DNA of 64,000 nucleotides from Rhodanobacteraceae bacterium (GTDB lineage: Bacteria; Pseudomonadota; Gammaproteobacteria; Xanthomonadales; Rhodanobacteraceae). Below, piece after piece: positions 1,600-38,405 of this stretch. Each line of letters begins with the position of its first letter. Position 1 is the stretch's first letter. The DNA is taken from the NCBI GenBank assembly GCA_009996615.1, contig JAACZU010000004.1:237529-301528 (forward strand), read 5' to 3'. The notes under the pieces were generated by a model. It made no database searches. It was not told the DNA's origin and saw only the letters and a program-made list of their open reading frames with translations. The position numbers and the translations under genes are program-made.

Positions 1600-3747
1600 C
1601 TATTTGTCGCCGGCCTCGGTCGTCAGGCCGCGCTGCTCGAGCAGCGGCTCGACGCGCGGGTCGCGGCCGCGGAAGTCGCGGTACATCGTCGCCATGTCCC
1701 TGGTGCTGCCGCGCGACAGCAGCATGTCGCGGAAGCGTTGGCCGTTCTCGCGCGTCATGCCGCCGTGCTCGCGGAACCAGTAGAACGCGTCATGGTCGAG
1801 CACCTCGCTCCACAGGTAGGCGTAGTAGCCGGCCGCGTAGCCGCCGCCCCAGATGTGCGCGAAGTACGGGCTGCGGTAGCGCGGCGGCACCAGCGCCACG
1901 TCGACGTTGAACTGCTGCAGCGCCTTGCGCTCGAACGCACCGGCCTCCTGCTTGGGCGCATCCGCCGGCAGCGTGTGCCAGGCCATGTCGAGCAGCGCGG
2001 CGGCGAGGTACTCGGTGGTCGCGAAGCCCTGGTTGAACGTGTGCGTCTTCTTGATCTTCTCGACCAGCTCGGCCGGCATCGGCGCGCCGGTCTGGTAGTG
2101 CCTGGCGAAATTCGCGAACACCTTCGGGTCGGACGCCCAGTGTTCGTTGAACTGCGACGGGAACTCGACGAAGTCGCGCGGCACGTTGGTGCCCGACAGC
2201 GTCGGGTACTGCACGTGCGAGAACATGCCGTGCAGCGCGTGGCCGAACTCGTGGAACATCGTGGTCGCGTCGTCCCAGCTGATCAGCGCCGGCTGGCCGG
2301 CGGACGGCTTGGTGAAGTTGCACACGTTGAACACGACCGGCCTGGTGCCGAAGAGGCCGGACTGGCCGACGAAGTTGTCCATCCAGGCGCCGCCGCGCTT
2401 GCTGTCGCGCTTCCAGTAGTCGGCGTAGAACAGCGCCAGCGAGCTGCCGTCCTTGTCGAACACCTCGAACACGCGCACGTCCGGGTGGTAGACCGGGATG
2501 TCCTTGCGCTCCTTGAAGGTCAGGCCGTACAGCTGGTTGGCGGCGTAGAACACGCCGTCGTGCAGCACGCGGTCGATCTCCAGGTACGGCTTGATCTGCG
2601 CCTCGTCGAGGTCGTACTCGGCCTTGCGCACCTGCTCGGCGTAGAACTGCCAGTCCCACGGCGCGAGCTTGAAGCCGCCCTGGCGCGCGTCGACCAGCGC
2701 CTGCATCTTGCCCGCCTCGCCGGCCGCCTTCGCGGTCGCCGCCGGCACCATGTCGGTCATCAGCTTGATCGCGGCGTCCGGCGTCTTGGCCATCTGGTCG
2801 GCCAGCGTGTAGGCGGCGAAGTTCTCGAAGCCGAGCAGCTTGGCGCGCTCGGCGCGCAGCGCGGCGAGGCGCTCGATCAGCGCGCGCGTGTCATTCGCAT
2901 CATTGTGCTCGGCGCGCTCGGTCGAGGCCTTGAACAGGCGCTCGCGCGTGGCGCGGTCCTGCAGCGATGCCTGGTCGGGCTGCTGCGTCGTGTTCTGCAG
3001 CGTGATCACATACTTGCCGGCGAGCTTGCGCTCCTTCGCCGCGTCCGCGGCGGCGGCGAGATCGGCGTCGGACAGCCCGGCCAGCGCGGCCTTGTCGTCG
3101 ACCACCAGCGCGCCGGCGTTGGTCGCCGCGAGCAGCTTCTCGTCGAACGCGGTGGTCAGCTGCGATTCTTCCTTGTTCAGCGCGCGCAGCTTCGCCTGCT
3201 CGGCCTTGCCGAGCTGCGCGCCGGCGCGCACGAAATCGCGGTAGTAGCGCTCGACCAGCTCGGTCTGCTCCGGATCGAGGCCGAGCGTGGCGCGCGCATC
3301 GTGGATCGTCTTGACGCGCTGGAACAGCTGCGGATCGAGGTAGATCGCGTCCTGGTGCTCGGCGAGCTTCGGCGCGACGGCCGTCTGCACCTTCTGCAGC
3401 GTCTTGTTCGTGTCGGCCGCGGTCAGCGCGAAGAACACCATCGCGACGCGGTTCAGCAGCCGGCCGGAGCGCTCCATCGCCTCGATCGTGTTGGCGAAGG
3501 TCGGCGCCTCCTTGTTCGAGGCGATGCGGCGCACCTCGGCCAGGTGCTCCTTCATGCCGGCCTCGAGCGCGGGCTGGTAGTCGCGGTCCTTGATCTTGTC
3601 GAACGGCGGCGCCTGGAACGGCAGCGTGCTCGCCGCCGCGAACGGATTGCTCGCCGGCAGCCCGGCCGCCTGTGCGGCCGACAGCGAGCCGAAGCCGCCG
3701 AGCAGGATCAGGTTCATCGTCGTCGCCAGTACTCGTGTTCGCAGCAT
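1600..3747 (-). CDS. M3-family zinc oligopeptidase (Dcp/oligopeptidase A-like), exported
   Basis: A roughly 715-residue M3A peptidase that degrades short peptides. The zinc motif is HEFGH (His499, Glu500, His503 from the chosen start), with the family segments TTMFHEFGHALHGMFSH and FVEFPSQFNEHW downstream. The reading frame is open to 3840, but I chose the ATG at 3747 because GAGG lies nine bases upstream; the ATG at 3756 directly abuts that GAGG. The product then starts MLRTRVLATTMNLILLGG, a signal peptide ending near AQAAG, so it should be periplasmic. A paralogue at 50975-53164 is instead a lipoprotein. A GTAG-type repeat follows its 3' end. Confidence 0.9.
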   Translation of the reverse strand: MLRTRVLATTMNLILLGGFGSLSAAQAAGLPASNPFAAASTLPFQAPPFDKIKDRDYQPALEAGMKEHLAEVRRIASNKEAPTFANTIEAMERSGRLLNRVAMVFFALTAADTNKTLQKVQTAVAPKLAEHQDAIYLDPQLFQRVKTIHDARATLGLDPEQTELVERYYRDFVRAGAQLGKAEQAKLRALNKEESQLTTAFDEKLLAATNAGALVVDDKAALAGLSDADLAAAADAAKERKLAGKYVITLQNTTQQPDQASLQDRATRERLFKASTERAEHNDANDTRALIERLAALRAERAKLLGFENFAAYTLADQMAKTPDAAIKLMTDMVPAATAKAAGEAGKMQALVDARQGGFKLAPWDWQFYAEQVRKAEYDLDEAQIKPYLEIDRVLHDGVFYAANQLYGLTFKERKDIPVYHPDVRVFEVFDKDGSSLALFYADYWKRDSKRGGAWMDNFVGQSGLFGTRPVVFNVCNFTKPSAGQPALISWDDATTMFHEFGHALHGMFSHVQYPTLSGTNVPRDFVEFPSQFNEHWASDPKVFANFARHYQTGAPMPAELVEKIKKTHTFNQGFATTEYLAAALLDMAWHTLPADAPKQEAGAFERKALQQFNVDVALVPPRYRSPYFAHIWGGGYAAGYYAYLWSEVLDHDAFYWFREHGGMTRENGQRFRDMLLSRGSTRDMATMYRDFRGRDPRVEPLLEQRGLTTEAGDK

Positions 3748-31990: not shown

Positions 31991-32494
31991 TCAGGCCACG
32001 GCCGACGAGGCCGGCGCGCGGCGCGGCAGCCAGCGCAGCCAGAGCAGGAACACGACCAGCGCATCGAGCACGATCAGCGCCTGCCACAGGTACAGGTGGA
32101 ACCAGTCGAACCACAGGCGGTTCCACTGGCCGAGGTAGAACAGGCTGATGATGCGCACGAGGTTCACCGCCTGGATCGCGACGAAACCGACCGCGATGCC
32201 GGACAGCTTGTGCTTCCACGGCGCCGGAAACGCCAGCATCGCCGAAACGAGGATGATGACCGCCTCGATGCCGTTGCAGCCACGCTCGATCGAGATCGCG
32301 AAATCGTTGCGCGTGCTCTGCAGGATCTTGCCGTGAGCAATCGCGTTCGCATCGAACAGGTCGACGATGAACACGCACACCTGCGCGATCGCGCTGGTGA
32401 ACGGCACGATCACGTGCTGCTCGACCGGCTGCCACAACTCGGCCAGGAACAGCGCGGTAAGCAGGAACAGGAACAGCAGCAGGAAGCGCAGCAT
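31991..32494 (-). CDS. xrtH: Exosortase H (XrtH-type) sorting peptidase
   Basis: A 167-residue multipass membrane protein of the exosortase/archaeosortase family. The catalytic set is visible: Cys73 in SIERGCNGIEA, Arg114 in AVNLVRIISLFYLG and His133 in WFDWFHLYLWQ. The short single-domain length fits XrtH, the enzyme linked to IPTL-type C-terminal sorting signals (from memory of the family). Exosortases cut substrates at the sorting signal in the inner membrane. Candidate substrates with a related signal lie at 34411-37347 and 37487-38011, separated only by aroKB. Confidence 0.85.
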   Translation of the reverse strand: MLRFLLLFLFLLTALFLAELWQPVEQHVIVPFTSAIAQVCVFIVDLFDANAIAHGKILQSTRNDFAISIERGCNGIEAVIILVSAMLAFPAPWKHKLSGIAVGFVAIQAVNLVRIISLFYLGQWNRLWFDWFHLYLWQALIVLDALVVFLLWLRWLPRRAPASSAVA

Positions 32495-32610
32495 GGGCAG
32501 GAGGCTGAGGGCTTGGGGGGCGGGCCGATTCTCGCATACCGACGCCGCGCCTCGCCCGCGGCAAGGGCATCGCGGCTGAAGCCGCCGACATCGTCGTCAC
32601 GGGCCGCTCT

Positions 32611-32732
32611 TGTGGGAGCGCCGGCAGGCGCGATGCTCTCGTGCCGCGAGGCATCGCGGCTTCCGCCGATCCCACCATGCGCCGCGCTCGCTCCTCACTC
32701 CTGTTTCCTCGTTCCTCGTTCCTCGTTCCTCG
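32611..32732. repeat. Palindromic repeat followed by a TTCCTCG heptamer array
   Basis: 32611-32676 is an inverted repeat (TGTGGGAGCGCCGGCAGGCG ... CGGCTTCCGCCGATCCCACC) of the family also at 9164. 32705-32732 is four perfect copies of TTCCTCG, ending 20 bases before aroK. The rest of 32495-32752 shows no gene. Confidence 0.75.
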
Positions 32733-32752
32733 GCCTTTGCTAGCATCCGGCC

Positions 32753-33295
32753 ATGAATCCCGCGCCCAACCTGTTCCTGGTCGGCCCGATGGGCGCCGGC
32801 AAGACGACCATCGGGCGCCAGATCGCCGAGCTGTTCCGCATGCCGTTCCTCGACCTCGACCACGAGATCGAGGCGCATACCGGCGCGCAGGTCAGCCTGA
32901 TCTTCGAGCTCGAAGGCGAGCCCGGTTTCCGCCGACGCGAGAGCCAGATGCTGGCCGAACTCGTCGCGCGCAACGGCCTGGTGCTCGCCACCGGCGGCGG
33001 CGCGGTGCTGAGTGCCGACAACCGCCGCCTGCTGCGCGAACGCGGTTTCGTGATCTGGCTCGACACGCCGGTCGAGGCGCAGCTCGCGCGGCTCGGCCGC
33101 GACCGCCAGCGCCCTCTGCTGCAAACGCCCGACCGCCGCGAGCGGCTCGACCGGCTCGCCGCCGAGCGCAATCCGCTGTATGCCGAGATCGCCGACCTCA
33201 CGCTGCATTCGAACGGCGTCGGCAACTGCACGCGCGTCACCCACGACCTGCTCGACCTGCTCGAGGCGCGCTGGCAGCGCGGCATCGCCGCATGA
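32753..33295 (+). CDS. aroK: Shikimate kinase AroK
   Basis: A 180-residue shikimate kinase of the aromatic amino-acid pathway. Walker A is [11 protein letters not shown]; shikimate-binding [19 protein letters not shown] and ATGGGAVL are all present, as is the LID arginine region RDRQRPLL. Its TGA overlaps the aroB ATG (ATGA), so the two are translationally coupled. The TTCCTCG array just upstream may affect promoter spacing. Confidence 0.95.
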
Positions 33296-34371
33296 GCGCG
33301 CCGGTCACGGTCGAGGTCGCGCTCGGCGCGCGCAGCTACCCGGTGTGGATCGGCCACGGCCTGCTCGACGACGCCGCGCGTTGGCGCGGCGCGATCGGCG
33401 GCCGCCACGTGCTGGTCGTGACCAACGAGACGGTCGCGCCGCTGTACCTGGCGCGCGTCCAGGCCGGCCTCGACGGCCTGCGCCACGCCACGCTGGTGCT
33501 GCCGGACGGCGAGGCGCACAAGACGCTGGAACAGGCCGCGCGCGTGTTCGACGCGCTGGCCGCGCTCGGCGCGACGCGCGACGCGACGATCGTCGCGCTC
33601 GGCGGCGGCGTGATCGGCGACCTCGCCGGCTTCGCCGCGGCGTGCTGGATGCGCGGCATCGACTTCGTGCAGATGCCGACCACGCTGCTGGCGATGGTCG
33701 ACTCCTCGGTCGGCGGCAAGACCGGCGTGAACCTGCCGGCCGGCAAGAACCTGGTCGGCGCGTTCCACCAGCCGCGCGCGGTCGTCGCCGACACCGCGAC
33801 GCTGGCGACGCTGCCGGCGCGCGAGTACCGCGCGGGCCTGGCCGAAGTGGTCAAGTACGGCGCGATCGGCGACGCGGCGCTGTTCGCCTGGCTGGAGGCG
33901 CACGCCGACGCGCTGAACGCGCGCGATCCGTCCGCGCTGGCCGCGGCGATCGCGGCGAGCTGCCGGCACAAGGCCGGCGTGGTCGCACGCGACGAGCACG
34001 AGCAGAGCGAGCGCGCGCTGCTGAACTTCGGCCACACCTTCGGCCACGCGCTGGAGGCAGGCACCGGCTACGGCACGCTGCTGCACGGCGAGGCGGTCGC
34101 GATCGGCATGGTGCTGGCCGCCAAGCTGTCGGCCGAGCTCGGCCGCGCGCCGCACGCCGACGCCGAGCGCCTCGCCGCGCTGCTCGCCGCACTCGGCCTG
34201 CCGGTCACGCTGCCGCCCTGCGATCCGGCGCAACTGCTCGCGCTGATGCGGCTGGACAAGAAGAACCTCGCCGGCCGCCTGCGCCTGATCCTGTGGCGTG
34301 GCCTCGGCCGCGCCGAGATCGTGCCCGACGTCGACGAGGGCGCGATCCGGGCCGTGCTGACAGTGATCTGA
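33292..34371 (+). CDS. aroB: 3-dehydroquinate synthase AroB
   Basis: A 359-residue NAD- and Zn-dependent cyclase converting DAHP to 3-dehydroquinate. Motifs: [50 protein letters not shown], the zinc ligands near [11 protein letters not shown] and [10 protein letters not shown]. The end [20 protein letters not shown] is repeated with changes at 38249-38400, where it stands alone as a remnant. The gene is complete and ends 39 bases from the convergent protease gene. Confidence 0.95.
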
Positions 34372-34410
34372 CGCTATCTCCCCAATCGGCGGAGCAGTCC
34401 TGACGGAGTG

Positions 34411-37347
34411 CTACGGCTGGTCGAACCCGTTTCTGAAAATGACGTTGGCCCCACAATAAAACGCCCCGTACGCCCCTCCCGCACACGGGTCGCTGACCGG
34501 CACGCCCACCATCGGAAACCTTTCCGAATCGGTCTTTGACATGTCACCGTTGGACCATCTGGAGTTCGGGTTGGTGCCAACGACGTACTCGAAGCCGTCC
34601 GGCAAGCCATCGCCATCCGTATCAGTGGCCGCGTAGGCATAACCGAGCAAGGTCCTCGCGCCCCCAATCGGCGGGTAGGTCGAGGTATGGCCGGGAAAGT
34701 CGCCGATCTCGCTTTCAAGGAACGTCGCGCAGTCGTTGTCGGCAACCTTGCACGCGCGGTAGAACTTCTGCGCGCCGGGCGGAATGCAGCCGGGCTCCGG
34801 CGTACAGGGCTGGTAGACATACCCCTGTATCGTGCGCAGGTTGTAGCCATCATTGTGCGCGTACTGGATGTCGGCCGCGGTCGTTACAAGCATGAAATCC
34901 CTGCCGGACGCGTAGGTCTTGTCCATCTGATAGAGCGGCACCAGGCCGGGCCATTCATTGCGCGGCCGGACCTCGGTCGTCAGCACATAGACCGGCGCGC
35001 GCGGCATCGCTACCCCCTGATCAGTGGGATCGTGCGGAAACGTCGGATAACCCGGCACCTCATTGCCCTTGGGCTGCCACGAATCCGCCTCATTGATCAT
35101 GAGCGCCACCGCCGTCTGCGGCGACGTGGTGTCCGCGTAGTCGCGCGATGTGGCGCTGTAGAGGCGAAACAGCGGCGTCGCTCGATTCCGCACCGTGACC
35201 CCGGCCACCGTACCTAGCATCTTGCGCACCGCGGCGGCAGCATCGGGGCGGCCGTAGCCGGTGTACGGGCTCCAGGCATGGCCCAACCGCGCCTCGGCGG
35301 TCGTCGAAGCCAGTACGTGGCGCACGCTGGAGGCCGGCGTGGTCGGCTGGGCGCCAGTCGGTACCAGTGGATTGATCGAGCGCAGAATGCCGACAACACC
35401 CGCGATCTGTGGCGCCGACATCGAGGTGCCGGTGCACAGACCCACGCCATTGCCGAATCCCGGTCCGGGCATCTGGTCGCCGCACTTCAGGTTGGCATTC
35501 CAGTTGTAGCCCGGATAGGTCGTCGACCATATCGATTGCGCCGCGCCGATCAATTCCTGCTTTGGGCCGTATGCCACATCCTGCGTGAAGTTGGATCCGC
35601 ATTCGGAGCCGCCATAGCCGGTCGGACAGCTCGCATAGCCACCCGGCGACAGGTCCCACAACGCCAGGTTCTCCTGGAAGCCGCCGGCCGCAATGACACG
35701 CGAATCCTTCGCCGGAAAGTCGAGTTGCTTTCTGTCGTTGCCCGATGCCGCGACCATCGCGACGTCGCGCAGGGACGCGTGCTCGATCGCCAGGCAGAGC
35801 GGCTCTGTCGAGAAGCTGGCGCAGACATCGCGGTAGCTATCGATCGAGACGCCGAAGCTCATGCTGGCGACCTGAGCGCCAACGTCGCCCGCCAACGTCA
35901 GGGCGCTGGCCTGCGCGATATTGTTGGTCGAAAGTGTGATTTTTCCGGACTGAGGGACGCAGGCCGCGAAAGCGGTCTTCCACATCGAAACGCCGCAATG
36001 CTTGCAGGTCCCTTGCACGCCGAGGCCGGCATCGCCATTCGCGGCGACCAGGCCGGCCGCATGGGTGCCGTGTCCCGCGATCGCCGGCGGCAGGTCAGGG
36101 TGGTTCGCCGGATCGGGATTGCACGCGGCGTCCGGCACCGGCATCGGCCGACGCTCGTCGACGTTGGGGCTGTGCTGCGGCGGATCGACCAATCCGGCCA
36201 GGCTGACGTCCAGCGAGGCGACCGGGATGAAATTGCCGCCCACATACTGGCCGGTGCTGGAAAACTGCCGCAGGGCGGGATGGTCGACATGCAGCCCGGT
36301 ATCGATGACCGAGACCAGCGCATGGCCGCCAGCGAGTTGCCAGGCGGCGTCGATGTTGAGGCCGTTCCTTCCGTACTGGTCGATGGTCGACGACGGCCCG
36401 CTGCCGATGACGTCGAAGCTCGTCAGCGACACCGAGGAGAAGCGCATCGGCAACGGCTCATAGGCCGCCGCAACGTACGGATCGGCTTGCAACGCGGCCA
36501 GCGCGGGCTTGAGATCGGTGCCCTCTGGATAAAGCACGACGACGTAGCGTTCCAGCATCGCGCGCGTGGAGTCCGGATTCGCCTGCAGGTGCGCAAGGAA
36601 ATCCCCGCTCGCGCGCACCGGCAGCAGCCAGGCGGCCTGCTGCGGATCGCCGACGGTCAGCGCCTGCAGCGGTGGCGGCCCCGCCCGGCGCGGAATCGCG
36701 CGGTAATAGTTCACCAGTTCGTCCGGCGTCGGCGCACCGGCCGCGGTGCTCAGAAGCACCTGGATGACGCGGTTGGGTGGCGCATCCTGCGCCCGCGCGC
36801 CGAGCGGCAGCGAAGCAAGTGCGACCAGCCACAACGCCGATCGTCGAGCGCGCAGGACCCACGCGGCAAGCGCGGCCAGCGCGAAAGCCAGCAAGTACAA
36901 GCCCAGCCCACCAAGCGCCGGCGCCGGCACGGGCGGTGTGACGGCCGGCGAGACAGTGAACGGAATCGTCCCCAGCGTGTCGACGACGAATGATCCGAGT
37001 GGGCCGGGATACCGCAGCGCCACCCGCAAAGTGTATGAGCCGGGGGGAAAGGACCCAACGGGGAAACTCGCCGTGCCCACGTCGATGTTGCAAAGGATCG
37101 GGTTCGTGTAGCGAACGCCATTGAACAGGATCGTGATCGCATTCCCTTCCTGGGTGATCTTCGGGTAACCCGGGAACGAAACGATGGCGTCGCATTCCCC
37201 GCCGCGAATAACGATCGATACGGTCTGCCCAGCGACCGGCTGCGCCGGCGCCAAGTACGGCGTATCGAAGAACGCCTGCGCGGCCTGTGCAAAGAACAAG
37301 CACACCAGCGCCATCATGAGCGCAACACGATGCTTGAGCATGTCCAT
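34411..37347 (-). CDS. S8 serine protease precursor with a mid-protein sorting-signal-like segment
   Basis: A 978-residue exported precursor. Residues 1-25 are a signal peptide (MDMLKHRVALMMALVCLFFA...QA). Residues about 26-135 form a small domain shared with the next gene. Residues about 138-169 are Pro-rich PPVPAPALGG, a hydrophobic helix, then RARR, an exosortase-type sorting signal in mid-protein. Residues 170-187 (ALWLVALASLPLGARAQ) resemble a second signal peptide. A subtilisin-type protease follows, with Asp349 (VIDTG), His426 (GHGTH) and Ser642 (GTSMSAP). The C-terminus is FRNGFDQP. AGGAGG five bases upstream sets the ATG at 37347. Cutting by XrtH and release of the protease are inferred. 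Confidence 0.85.
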   Translation of the reverse strand: MDMLKHRVALMMALVCLFFAQAAQAFFDTPYLAPAQPVAGQTVSIVIRGGECDAIVSFPGYPKITQEGNAITILFNGVRYTNPILCNIDVGTASFPVGSFPPGSYTLRVALRYPGPLGSFVVDTLGTIPFTVSPAVTPPVPAPALGGLGLYLLAFALAALAAWVLRARRSALWLVALASLPLGARAQDAPPNRVIQVLLSTAAGAPTPDELVNYYRAIPRRAGPPPLQALTVGDPQQAAWLLPVRASGDFLAHLQANPDSTRAMLERYVVVLYPEGTDLKPALAALQADPYVAAAYEPLPMRFSSVSLTSFDVIGSGPSSTIDQYGRNGLNIDAAWQLAGGHALVSVIDTGLHVDHPALRQFSSTGQYVGGNFIPVASLDVSLAGLVDPPQHSPNVDERRPMPVPDAACNPDPANHPDLPPAIAGHGTHAAGLVAANGDAGLGVQGTCKHCGVSMWKTAFAACVPQSGKITLSTNNIAQASALTLAGDVGAQVASMSFGVSIDSYRDVCASFSTEPLCLAIEHASLRDVAMVAASGNDRKQLDFPAKDSRVIAAGGFQENLALWDLSPGGYASCPTGYGGSECGSNFTQDVAYGPKQELIGAAQSIWSTTYPGYNWNANLKCGDQMPGPGFGNGVGLCTGTSMSAPQIAGVVGILRSINPLVPTGAQPTTPASSVRHVLASTTAEARLGHAWSPYTGYGRPDAAAAVRKMLGTVAGVTVRNRATPLFRLYSATSRDYADTTSPQTAVALMINEADSWQPKGNEVPGYPTFPHDPTDQGVAMPRAPVYVLTTEVRPRNEWPGLVPLYQMDKTYASGRDFMLVTTAADIQYAHNDGYNLRTIQGYVYQPCTPEPGCIPPGAQKFYRACKVADNDCATFLESEIGDFPGHTSTYPPIGGARTLLGYAYAATDTDGDGLPDGFEYVVGTNPNSRWSNGDMSKTDSERFPMVGVPVSDPCAGGAYGAFYCGANVIFRNGFDQP

Positions 37348-37371
37348 TCCTACCTCCTGTGAGCACCACAC

Positions 37372-37410
37372 TGCCGGAGTATACAAAGTCATGTCGGCAT
37401 GACCTGTCGC
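37372..37410 (-). promoter_or_regulatory. Candidate promoter block of the S8 protease gene
   Basis: On the minus strand TATACT (37383 to 37378) lies about 30 bases before the ATG, within a block nearly identical to that upstream of the paralogue (38045-38084). No good -35 hexamer is seen. Conservation may simply reflect the duplication. Confidence 0.4.
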
Positions 37411-37486
37411 TGCGGCAGGCGATTGCCGCCGAGTGCTCGTGCAACCAGGGAGGGTGCTCCCGGAAGCGGGCGTGCGGGAGCGCTGG

Positions 37487-38011
37487 TCAACGCCGCGGGC
37501 AGCGGACTGGCCGGCGCGTGCGCACGGCCCACGCGGCGAGTGCGGCCAGCGCGAGGGCCAGCAGGTACAGGCCTGGCTTGCCAAGCGCCGGTGCCGCTAT
37601 CGGTGGCCCAGCGACCGGCGCGACGGTGAACGGGATCGTGCCCAGCGTGTCGACCACGAATGATCCGAGTGGCCCGGGATACCTCAGTGCCACCTTCAAG
37701 GTGTACGAACCCGGAGGATAGGCACCGACAGTAAACGTCGCCGTGCCCACGTCGATGTTGCAGAGTATTGGATTCGTATAACGAACACCAAAGAAAAGAA
37801 TCGTGATCGCGTTTCCTTGCTGAGTAATCTGCGGATAGCCTGGGAAACCAAGGATGGAGTCACACTCCCCGCCATAGATGCTGACCGATACGGTCTGCCC
37901 GGCCAGCGGCTGCGCCGGCGTCAGGTACGGTGGATCAAAGAACGCCTGCGCGACCTGCGCAAACAGCAGGCACACCAGCGCCACCATGAGCGCAACACGA
38001 TGCTTGAGCAT
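37487..38011 (-). CDS. Short paralogue: exported N-domain with C-terminal sorting signal
   Basis: A 174-residue protein very similar to the first 170 residues of the adjacent protease precursor: signal peptide MLKHRVALMVALVCLLFAQV, a domain with the same two cysteines (GGECD, ILCNID) and the motif LRYPGPLGSFVVDTLGTIPF, then Pro/Ala-rich PPIAAPALGKPGLYLLALAL, a hydrophobic helix and RTRRPVRCPRR at the C-terminus. This is the ordinary layout of an exosortase substrate: signal peptide, mature domain, C-terminal anchor with basic tail. AAGGGA precedes the ATG. Function unknown; it likely derives from tandem duplication. Confidence 0.8.
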   Translation of the reverse strand: MLKHRVALMVALVCLLFAQVAQAFFDPPYLTPAQPLAGQTVSVSIYGGECDSILGFPGYPQITQQGNAITILFFGVRYTNPILCNIDVGTATFTVGAYPPGSYTLKVALRYPGPLGSFVVDTLGTIPFTVAPVAGPPIAAPALGKPGLYLLALALAALAAWAVRTRRPVRCPRR

Positions 38012-38044
38012 GTCCCTTCCCTTCTTCTTGCGAAGCCCGCATAG

Positions 38045-38084
38045 CACCGGAGTATACAAAGACAAGTCGGAATGACCTGCCGCT
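38045..38084 (-). promoter_or_regulatory. Candidate promoter block of the short paralogue
   Basis: TATACT on the minus strand (38056 to 38051), 40 bases before the ATG, in a block (CCGGAGTATACAAAG on the plus strand) shared with the upstream region of the protease gene. Confidence 0.4.
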
Positions 38085-38159
38085 CCGGCGGCGATCATCG
38101 CCAAGTATTCGTGCGATTGCGGTCGGTGCGCCCGCAGGCGGGCGTCGGGGAACGGCCAG

Positions 38160-38255
38160 TCAACGCTGCGAGCAGCGGACTGGCGGCGGCGTGCGCACGG
38201 CCCACACGGCGAGCGCGGCCAGCACGAGGGCCAACAGGGCCAGGCCCGGCCTGCC
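38160..38255 (-). pseudogene. Remnant third copy of the sorting-signal segment
   Basis: On the minus strand this reads [20 protein letters not shown] followed by [11 protein letters not shown] and a stop, nearly the same as the C-terminus of the paralogue at 37487 (GKPGLYLLALALAALAAWAV). The N-terminal domain is missing: homology stops where the aroB-derived fragment begins. DNA to its left (38085-38160) also matches the region left of the other copies. A decayed tandem copy. Confidence 0.75.
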
Positions 38256-38405
38256 GGTCACGCCGCCGCCCTGCTCGCACAGATGCGGCTGGACAGGAAG
38301 GCCCTCGCCGGCCGCCTGCGCCTGATCCTGCGACGCGGCGTCGGCCGGGCCGAGATCGTGCCGGACGTCGAGGAAGCCGCGATCCGCGCCGTGCTCGGCG
38401 CGGGC
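38247..38405 (+). pseudogene. Duplicated 3' fragment of aroB
   Basis: Encodes [20 protein letters not shown] then [18 protein letters not shown], matching the AroB C-terminus with a handful of substitutions. Nucleotide similarity begins at GGCCTGCCGGTCACG (38249) and has an 18-base deletion relative to aroB. No start codon or upstream aroB sequence is present. It lies almost 4 kb downstream of intact aroB, on the far side of the two sorting-signal genes. Confidence 0.8.

Follow-up and report, generated by a model that had tools for sequence, protein, structure and literature searches.

A probable two-part protease precursor with a mid-protein XrtH-type sorting signal and a putative second export signal in a Rhodanobacteraceae bacterium

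The DNA analysed here, referred to as the window, is a stretch of 64,000 nucleotides from the 3.9 Mb genome of a Rhodanobacteraceae bacterium. An earlier note on this DNA described three genes: xrtH, encoding an exosortase, and the genes for a 978-residue and a 174-residue protein. All three open reading frames were recovered where that note had placed them, each on the minus strand. The features of the locus are as follows.

31991..32494, minus strand: xrtH, exosortase H, 167 aa (TIGR04177; Cys73/Arg114/His133)
34411..37347, minus strand: 978-aa two-part precursor, whole gene including the stop codon (AGGAGG ahead of the ATG)
37273..37347, minus strand: first signal peptide, residues 1-25 (hydropathy; predicted helix 2-18; cleavage place set by eye)
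36928..37272, minus strand: N-terminal module, residues 26-140, a beta-sandwich (AlphaFold2 model, strands between 31 and 133)
36856..36927, minus strand: mid-protein XrtH-type signal and first transmembrane helix, residues 141-164 (predicted helix 147-169; sub-threshold matches to XrtH-type models)
36841..36852, minus strand: Arg cluster RARR, residues 166-169, in a predicted cytoplasmic loop
36790..36840, minus strand: second signal-peptide-like stretch, residues 170-186, ending in GARA ahead of Q (hydropathy, residues at -3 and -1)
36358..36789, minus strand: propeptide-like region, residues 187 to about 330 (conserved among relatives)
35251..36321, minus strand: S8 peptidase domain, residues 343-699, with Asp349/His426/Ser642 (PF00082, E 9e-25)
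34414..35250, minus strand: C-terminal region, residues 700-978, with a TSP3 repeat at 909-928 (PF18884, 25.5 bits, cut-off 25; conserved among relatives)
37487..38011, minus strand: stand-alone module protein, 174 aa, comprising a signal peptide, a beta-sandwich and a C-terminal XrtH-type signal with an Arg tail
38163..38260, minus strand: remnant of a third module tail
38271..38395, plus strand: duplicate of the 3' end of aroB, a trace of past duplication (88% identity to 34234-34358)

The earlier note placed xrtH beside the other two genes. All three are indeed near one another, but the word is loose, since aroK and aroB separate xrtH from the protease gene. The locus is flanked by a dodecin gene downstream of xrtH and by dnaE on the far side of the gene for the 174-residue protein. 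Nor is the closeness conserved. In all 12 other module-bearing genomes that have xrtH, it is found on a different contig from the modules, a comparison in which many contigs are short, yet those of G086 exceed 1 Mb. A conserved xrtH-module gene cluster was rejected on this ground. The window itself records a past duplication of the 3' end of aroB and of the module gene, which is present twice (36850-37582 against 37520-38255, 79.7% identity over 740 bases), along with a third module tail that has decayed. The upstream regions of both module genes have a TATACT-containing stretch in common, and a promoter scan returned no sigma-70-type site.

XrtH scores 183.9 bits against the exosortase H model, well over the cut-off of 86, and its Cys/Arg/His set is complete, as the earlier note had it. 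The gene is the sole place in the genome above the exosortase/archaeosortase signature cut-off; one further match reaches 16.9 bits, below 23.

The 174- and 978-residue proteins have a common module, as first noticed from the letters, and are 80% identical at the protein level. AlphaFold2 modelled residues 1-170 of the longer protein with a mean pLDDT of 88.5. A fold search with the module model gave no match at E 0.001 or better; its 324 matches at E up to 10 are led, weakly, by TRAP complex subunits. In the 174-residue protein, and likewise in its relatives, the helix and Arg tail of the module form the true C-terminus. In the 978-residue protein, a Pro-rich linker with an XrtH-type motif precedes helix 147-169, and the signal, with its Arg cluster, occupies residues 141-169. 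A mid-protein XrtH-type signal, as claimed in the earlier note, is supported, with model scores that are sub-threshold.

The second signal-peptide-like stretch that was reported behind this signal is also present, at residues 170-186 (ALWLVALASLPLGARAQ corresponds to residues 171-187). Judged by eye and by hydropathy, it ends in a signal peptidase I-type site between residues 186 and 187, with Ala at both -3 and -1. Pro143, Arg166 and Ala186-Gln187 are invariant in all six aligned fused proteins. A fold model of the full-length protein is unusable (mean pLDDT 39.7), and within it residues 191-300 form alpha/beta elements with a local pLDDT of 51-87. The protease part belongs to peptidase family S8, scoring 88 bits against PF00082 (gathering cut-off 21.8). 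Its Asp/His/Ser triad, which the note had called complete, is invariant in a seven-protein alignment. The protease relatives end alike, in IFxxG(F/Y) (here 34411-34440), which is perhaps a further terminal signal.

The sorting-signal models that match these signals are solely the two XrtH-linked ones, and all of their scores fall below the curated cut-offs, in the comparison that the earlier note proposed. Against IPTL-CTERM (TIGR04174, cut-off 20.5), the 174-residue protein scores 15.3 bits and the 978-residue protein 8.6; in a whole-genome search the values are 18.8 and 14.6 bits, still below the cut-off. The C-terminal position of IPTL-CTERM is seen in the 174-residue protein and not in the 978-residue protein, where the signal is internal. 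Against NF033207 (cut-off 45), the two score 14.5 and 12.9 bits, respectively. This family is named 'midcut-by-XrtH', which bears out the note's statement that mid-protein XrtH signals figure in family annotation. Its layout, a mid-protein XrtH-type signal and then a second hydrophobic stretch, is that of the 978-residue protein, the layout being taken from one member, L043, and the family being known by its name, length and scores. When the N-terminal parts of ten module and giant proteins were scanned, seven matched at least one of the two models below threshold and three matched neither.

To train a signal model on the lineage, 31 C-terminal signals were taken from relatives, with module proteins excluded. 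The resulting model ranks the 174-residue protein first among the 510 open reading frames of the window (E 0.0006), followed by the remnant (0.9), an unrelated frame (1.4) and the 978-residue frame taken whole (1.7). Scored as a short segment against a notional set of 4000 proteins, the 978-residue protein's signal reaches E 0.008; nine of 16 joints treated as short segments fall below E 0.1 and seven do not. At loose cut-offs, signal-model matches occur at 13 places in the genome; read by hand, these comprise eight C-terminal signals (the 174-residue protein included), one internal, one remnant and three apparently unrelated matches. With scores that are only sub-threshold, the case for an XrtH signal rests on recurrence and co-distribution.

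Recurrence was examined in a family sample of 197 genomes. Relatives of the 978-residue protein occur in 19 of these, with the module in 14 and protease matches alone in five (some at contig ends). By name, relatives of the protein are known from Tahibacter aquaticus DSM 21667 (L078), Pseudofulvimonas gallinarii and a Dokdonella MAG, as well as further MAGs called Lysobacteraceae, Rhodanobacteraceae or Xanthomonadales. In the other 273 genomes of a class sample, no module was found (alignment A1). Across the family genomes and the named loci, ten proteins in which the module continues through the joint were read (G000, G086 of Dokdonella, G036 of Tahibacter, G140, G110, G130:C47, G141, G121, G072 and that of Pseudofulvimonas), with G130:C28 and G057:C8 excluded for a stop inside the module or joint. 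With sites placed by eye, the aligned -1 residue is Ala in all ten; at -3 there is A in six, V in two, L in one and G in one, and at +1 Gln in eight.

The fused protease gene is intact in three of the ten (G000, G086 and G036), the intact relatives being 47-48% identical to the 978-residue protein. That of G140 (L019, about 2547-3536) breaks off ahead of another open reading frame, presumably a transposase. In Pseudofulvimonas gallinarii there is an in-frame TGA at L079:2276-2278. Selenocysteine was rejected here, and the TGA is probably a nonsense codon or a sequencing error, because the genome has no selB above the cut-off. The other five are truncated or frame-shifted, for which assembly error is possible in MAGs. 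On contig C116 of G110 (L022, L040), two adjacent module copies lie in opposite orientation, one of them fused and truncated.

There is also a natural split-gene version. In G014 (L077), the module and an intact protease that carries a signal peptide of its own are encoded by two adjacent genes, which share one frame and are set apart by a stop codon. G037 likewise has them as separate open reading frames, and there the protease frame ends early near a contig end. At L083:3605-6691, the same type of S8 protease carries another N-terminal domain and has no mid-protein helix, and no module was found within the 12.4 kb locus; the open reading frame of L082, whose contig measures 3.1 kb, is without the module. 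With nine sequences, a propeptide-region tree gives support of 22-38 inside the module-bearing group and favours neither fusion nor fission.

The same joint recurs in a second, unrelated class of proteins, which came to light by reading sub-threshold matches to NF033207. These large, mostly giant proteins (L094-L116 and, for example, L090:1260-8600), called giants below, consist of a signal peptide, an N-terminal domain (YSVYIDSDN...) unrelated to the module, an XrtH-type motif, a helix and an ARRARR-like cluster, past which lie a second hydrophobic stretch and then repeats. In L090, the one giant scanned for repeat families, these are tandem-95, bacterial Ig and cadherin-like repeats. Six giants among the NF033207 matches that were read score 20.8-33.8 bits. 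The joint was aligned in 23 proteins, from 22 family loci in 21 genomes and one from G395, and by eye the -1 residue is Ala in 22 and Gly in one. Their open frames exceed 2,400 aa in 14 and span 360-1,995 aa in nine, several of them cut by contig ends. Three matches were left uncounted: L117, which covers 44 positions only, and two marginal phylum-level matches outside the class (G540 and G617), limited to a short internal domain.

Both classes go together with XrtH, which is present in 49 of the 197 family genomes, 48 of them above the cut-off. All 21 genomes with giants have XrtH (hypergeometric 4e-15, ignoring relatedness), as do 13 of the 14 with modules (4e-8, likewise ignoring relatedness) and 18 of the 19 that match the 978-residue protein. 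The earlier note suggested checking whether the two-part proteins occur only with xrtH; for the module, the one exception among the 14 genomes is G176, a 77% complete genome with a module and no XrtH match. The distribution is clumped, in five of 26 genera, and giants are found in four of the five genera with XrtH (3e-4). A further 20 XrtH genomes have neither class. In the class sample (274 genomes, including this one), nine genomes are over the XrtH cut-off and 16 match at E 1e-10; the single giant of that sample, in G395, falls in one of the nine. Nine named loci were also considered, L081, which is G176 again, and L085 being left out of the XrtH test. XrtH was found in seven of the seven genomes tested, of which L077, L078 and L080 correspond to G014, G036 and G086, so that four are new. 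Among these four are the two genomes whose protease is without the module, that of L083 included. As such proteases also occur in XrtH genomes, shared descent explains part of the link.

Taken together, the 978-residue protein is probably a secreted polyprotein with two processing enzymes, XrtH and signal peptidase I. The first signal peptide would export the N-terminal module, and the mid-protein helix would then halt transfer, with the Arg cluster staying in the cytoplasm. A cytoplasmic Arg loop, flanked by two parts that lie outside, is what the positive-inside rule would predict, as applied to PEP-CTERM signals in the available text of PMC1569441. The next hydrophobic stretch would restart export, so that the joint would form a hairpin of two helices and leave each large part on the outside. 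XrtH may cut at the outer face ahead of the first helix and thereby release or attach the module, in the way expected for its 174-residue sister, and signal peptidase I would cut after GARA at the end of the second helix, freeing the protease; the two cuts would leave the hairpin stub behind. The freed protease may take off its own propeptide. In this way, a single gene would supply a sorted surface domain and, in matching quantity, a free protease. What the sequences show is the anatomy, the recurrence of the joint with two unrelated kinds of cargo, the natural split-gene version and the co-distribution with XrtH; the topology, the two cuts, the removal of the propeptide and the fate of the parts are inferred.

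Several findings count against the polyprotein reading, namely the sub-threshold signals, the small share of intact fused protease genes, the exception of G176 and the clumping by genera. The sub-threshold scores would suit a situation in which XrtH leaves the internal signal alone, so that signal peptidase I alone cuts, the protease being freed and the module tethered in the inner membrane, or the protein stays uncut as a membrane-anchored two-domain protein. This is unlikely, given that the sister proteins have this helix as their true C-terminal end, that two unrelated classes with a mid-protein signal co-occur with XrtH, and that the name of another NCBIfam family, if only the name, points to an internal XrtH cut. 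The broken genes point elsewhere: with seven of ten fused genes interrupted, truncated or frame-shifted, module and protease adjacent in one frame in L077 with just a stop codon between, and duplicated, decayed module copies in the window, the fusion might be a relic of neighbouring genes joined by stop-codon loss, its joined form functionless and its locus decaying. A relic would hardly account for the invariance, across six fused proteins, of Pro143, Arg166 and Ala186-Gln187 at the joint, nor for three fused proteins that are intact, and long open frames with this joint also occur in the second, unrelated class. We regard this explanation as rather improbable.

The earlier note had proposed that sorting is a switch, XrtH cutting being what releases or activates the protease. 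The signal does stand upstream of the protease, and XrtH accompanies nearly all relatives in the family. Against such a switch, the protease has an apparent release site of its own, signal peptidase I-like, after the second helix; in G014 it is encoded separately, by an intact gene, and carries a signal peptide of its own; and in L083 its N-terminal domain is a different one, with no module within the 12.4 kb locus. The idea is not supported, and we consider it very improbable. Judging from these sequences, protease release should not need XrtH, because the -1 Ala is found in ten of ten fused proteins and because G014 has an intact separate protease gene. Ordinary autoactivation would be the simpler idea, given the propeptide-like region.

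Exosortase signals are usually regarded as C-terminal tails. Here, two unrelated classes of large proteins have the signal in mid-protein, each followed by a second export signal, and the architecture is real and recurring. The importance of the protease version to the cell is uncertain, because most fused relatives are not intact, though the copy in the window is. The giants make the stronger case for a general route. It is tempting to extend the polyprotein reading to XrtH bacteria at large, a step that we put forward tentatively and hold less firmly than the reading of the single protein: exosortase and signal peptidase I might split one precursor at a compact two-helix hairpin into a sorted surface domain and, in a one-to-one ratio, an unrelated cargo, either a protease or a giant repeat protein, with the sorted part possibly serving as docking site or partner of the cargo. 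Relatives with the same joint ahead of very different cargo suggest that, in some bacteria, surface proteins arise from a precursor that is split. If this is true, bacteria would have a polyprotein route of secretion, and searches for sorting signals would need broader rules. Cutting by XrtH is directly testable by size on immunoblots, because both products are large and distinct. Among the matches listed by a literature search that left most subscription journals outside its reach, no paper dealt with cutting by XrtH, with the midcut family or with exosortase signals at internal positions.

Among known systems, midcut-by-XrtH comes closest in layout, its member L043 (100.1 bits) having an XrtH-type signal in mid-protein and a second hydrophobic stretch. 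The family exceeds its cut-off in one of the 197 family genomes (G132) and is short (175 positions), whereas the 978-residue protein has another module and a protease as its second part. The IPTL-CTERM/exosortase H system has the motif, the helix, the Arg cluster and an XrtH over the cut-off in common with the present case. Its signal is C-terminal by name and in the case described in PMC8671808, where an IPTL-CTERM domain is reported at the C-terminus of an S-layer protein; that of the 978-residue protein is internal and sub-threshold. PEP-CTERM and its exosortase (EpsH) are similar in the tripartite layout of the signal and the Cys/Arg/His set of the enzyme, as described in the available text of PMC1569441, but the motif differs and the signal lies near the C-terminus 'virtually without exception', in the words of that source. 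GlyGly-CTERM/rhombosortase is alike in that its cargo includes subtilisin-type proteases, according to the available text of PMC3237569. There, the signal is at the extreme C-terminus behind the protease and the enzyme belongs to a different family, while in the 978-residue protein the signal stands ahead of the protease.
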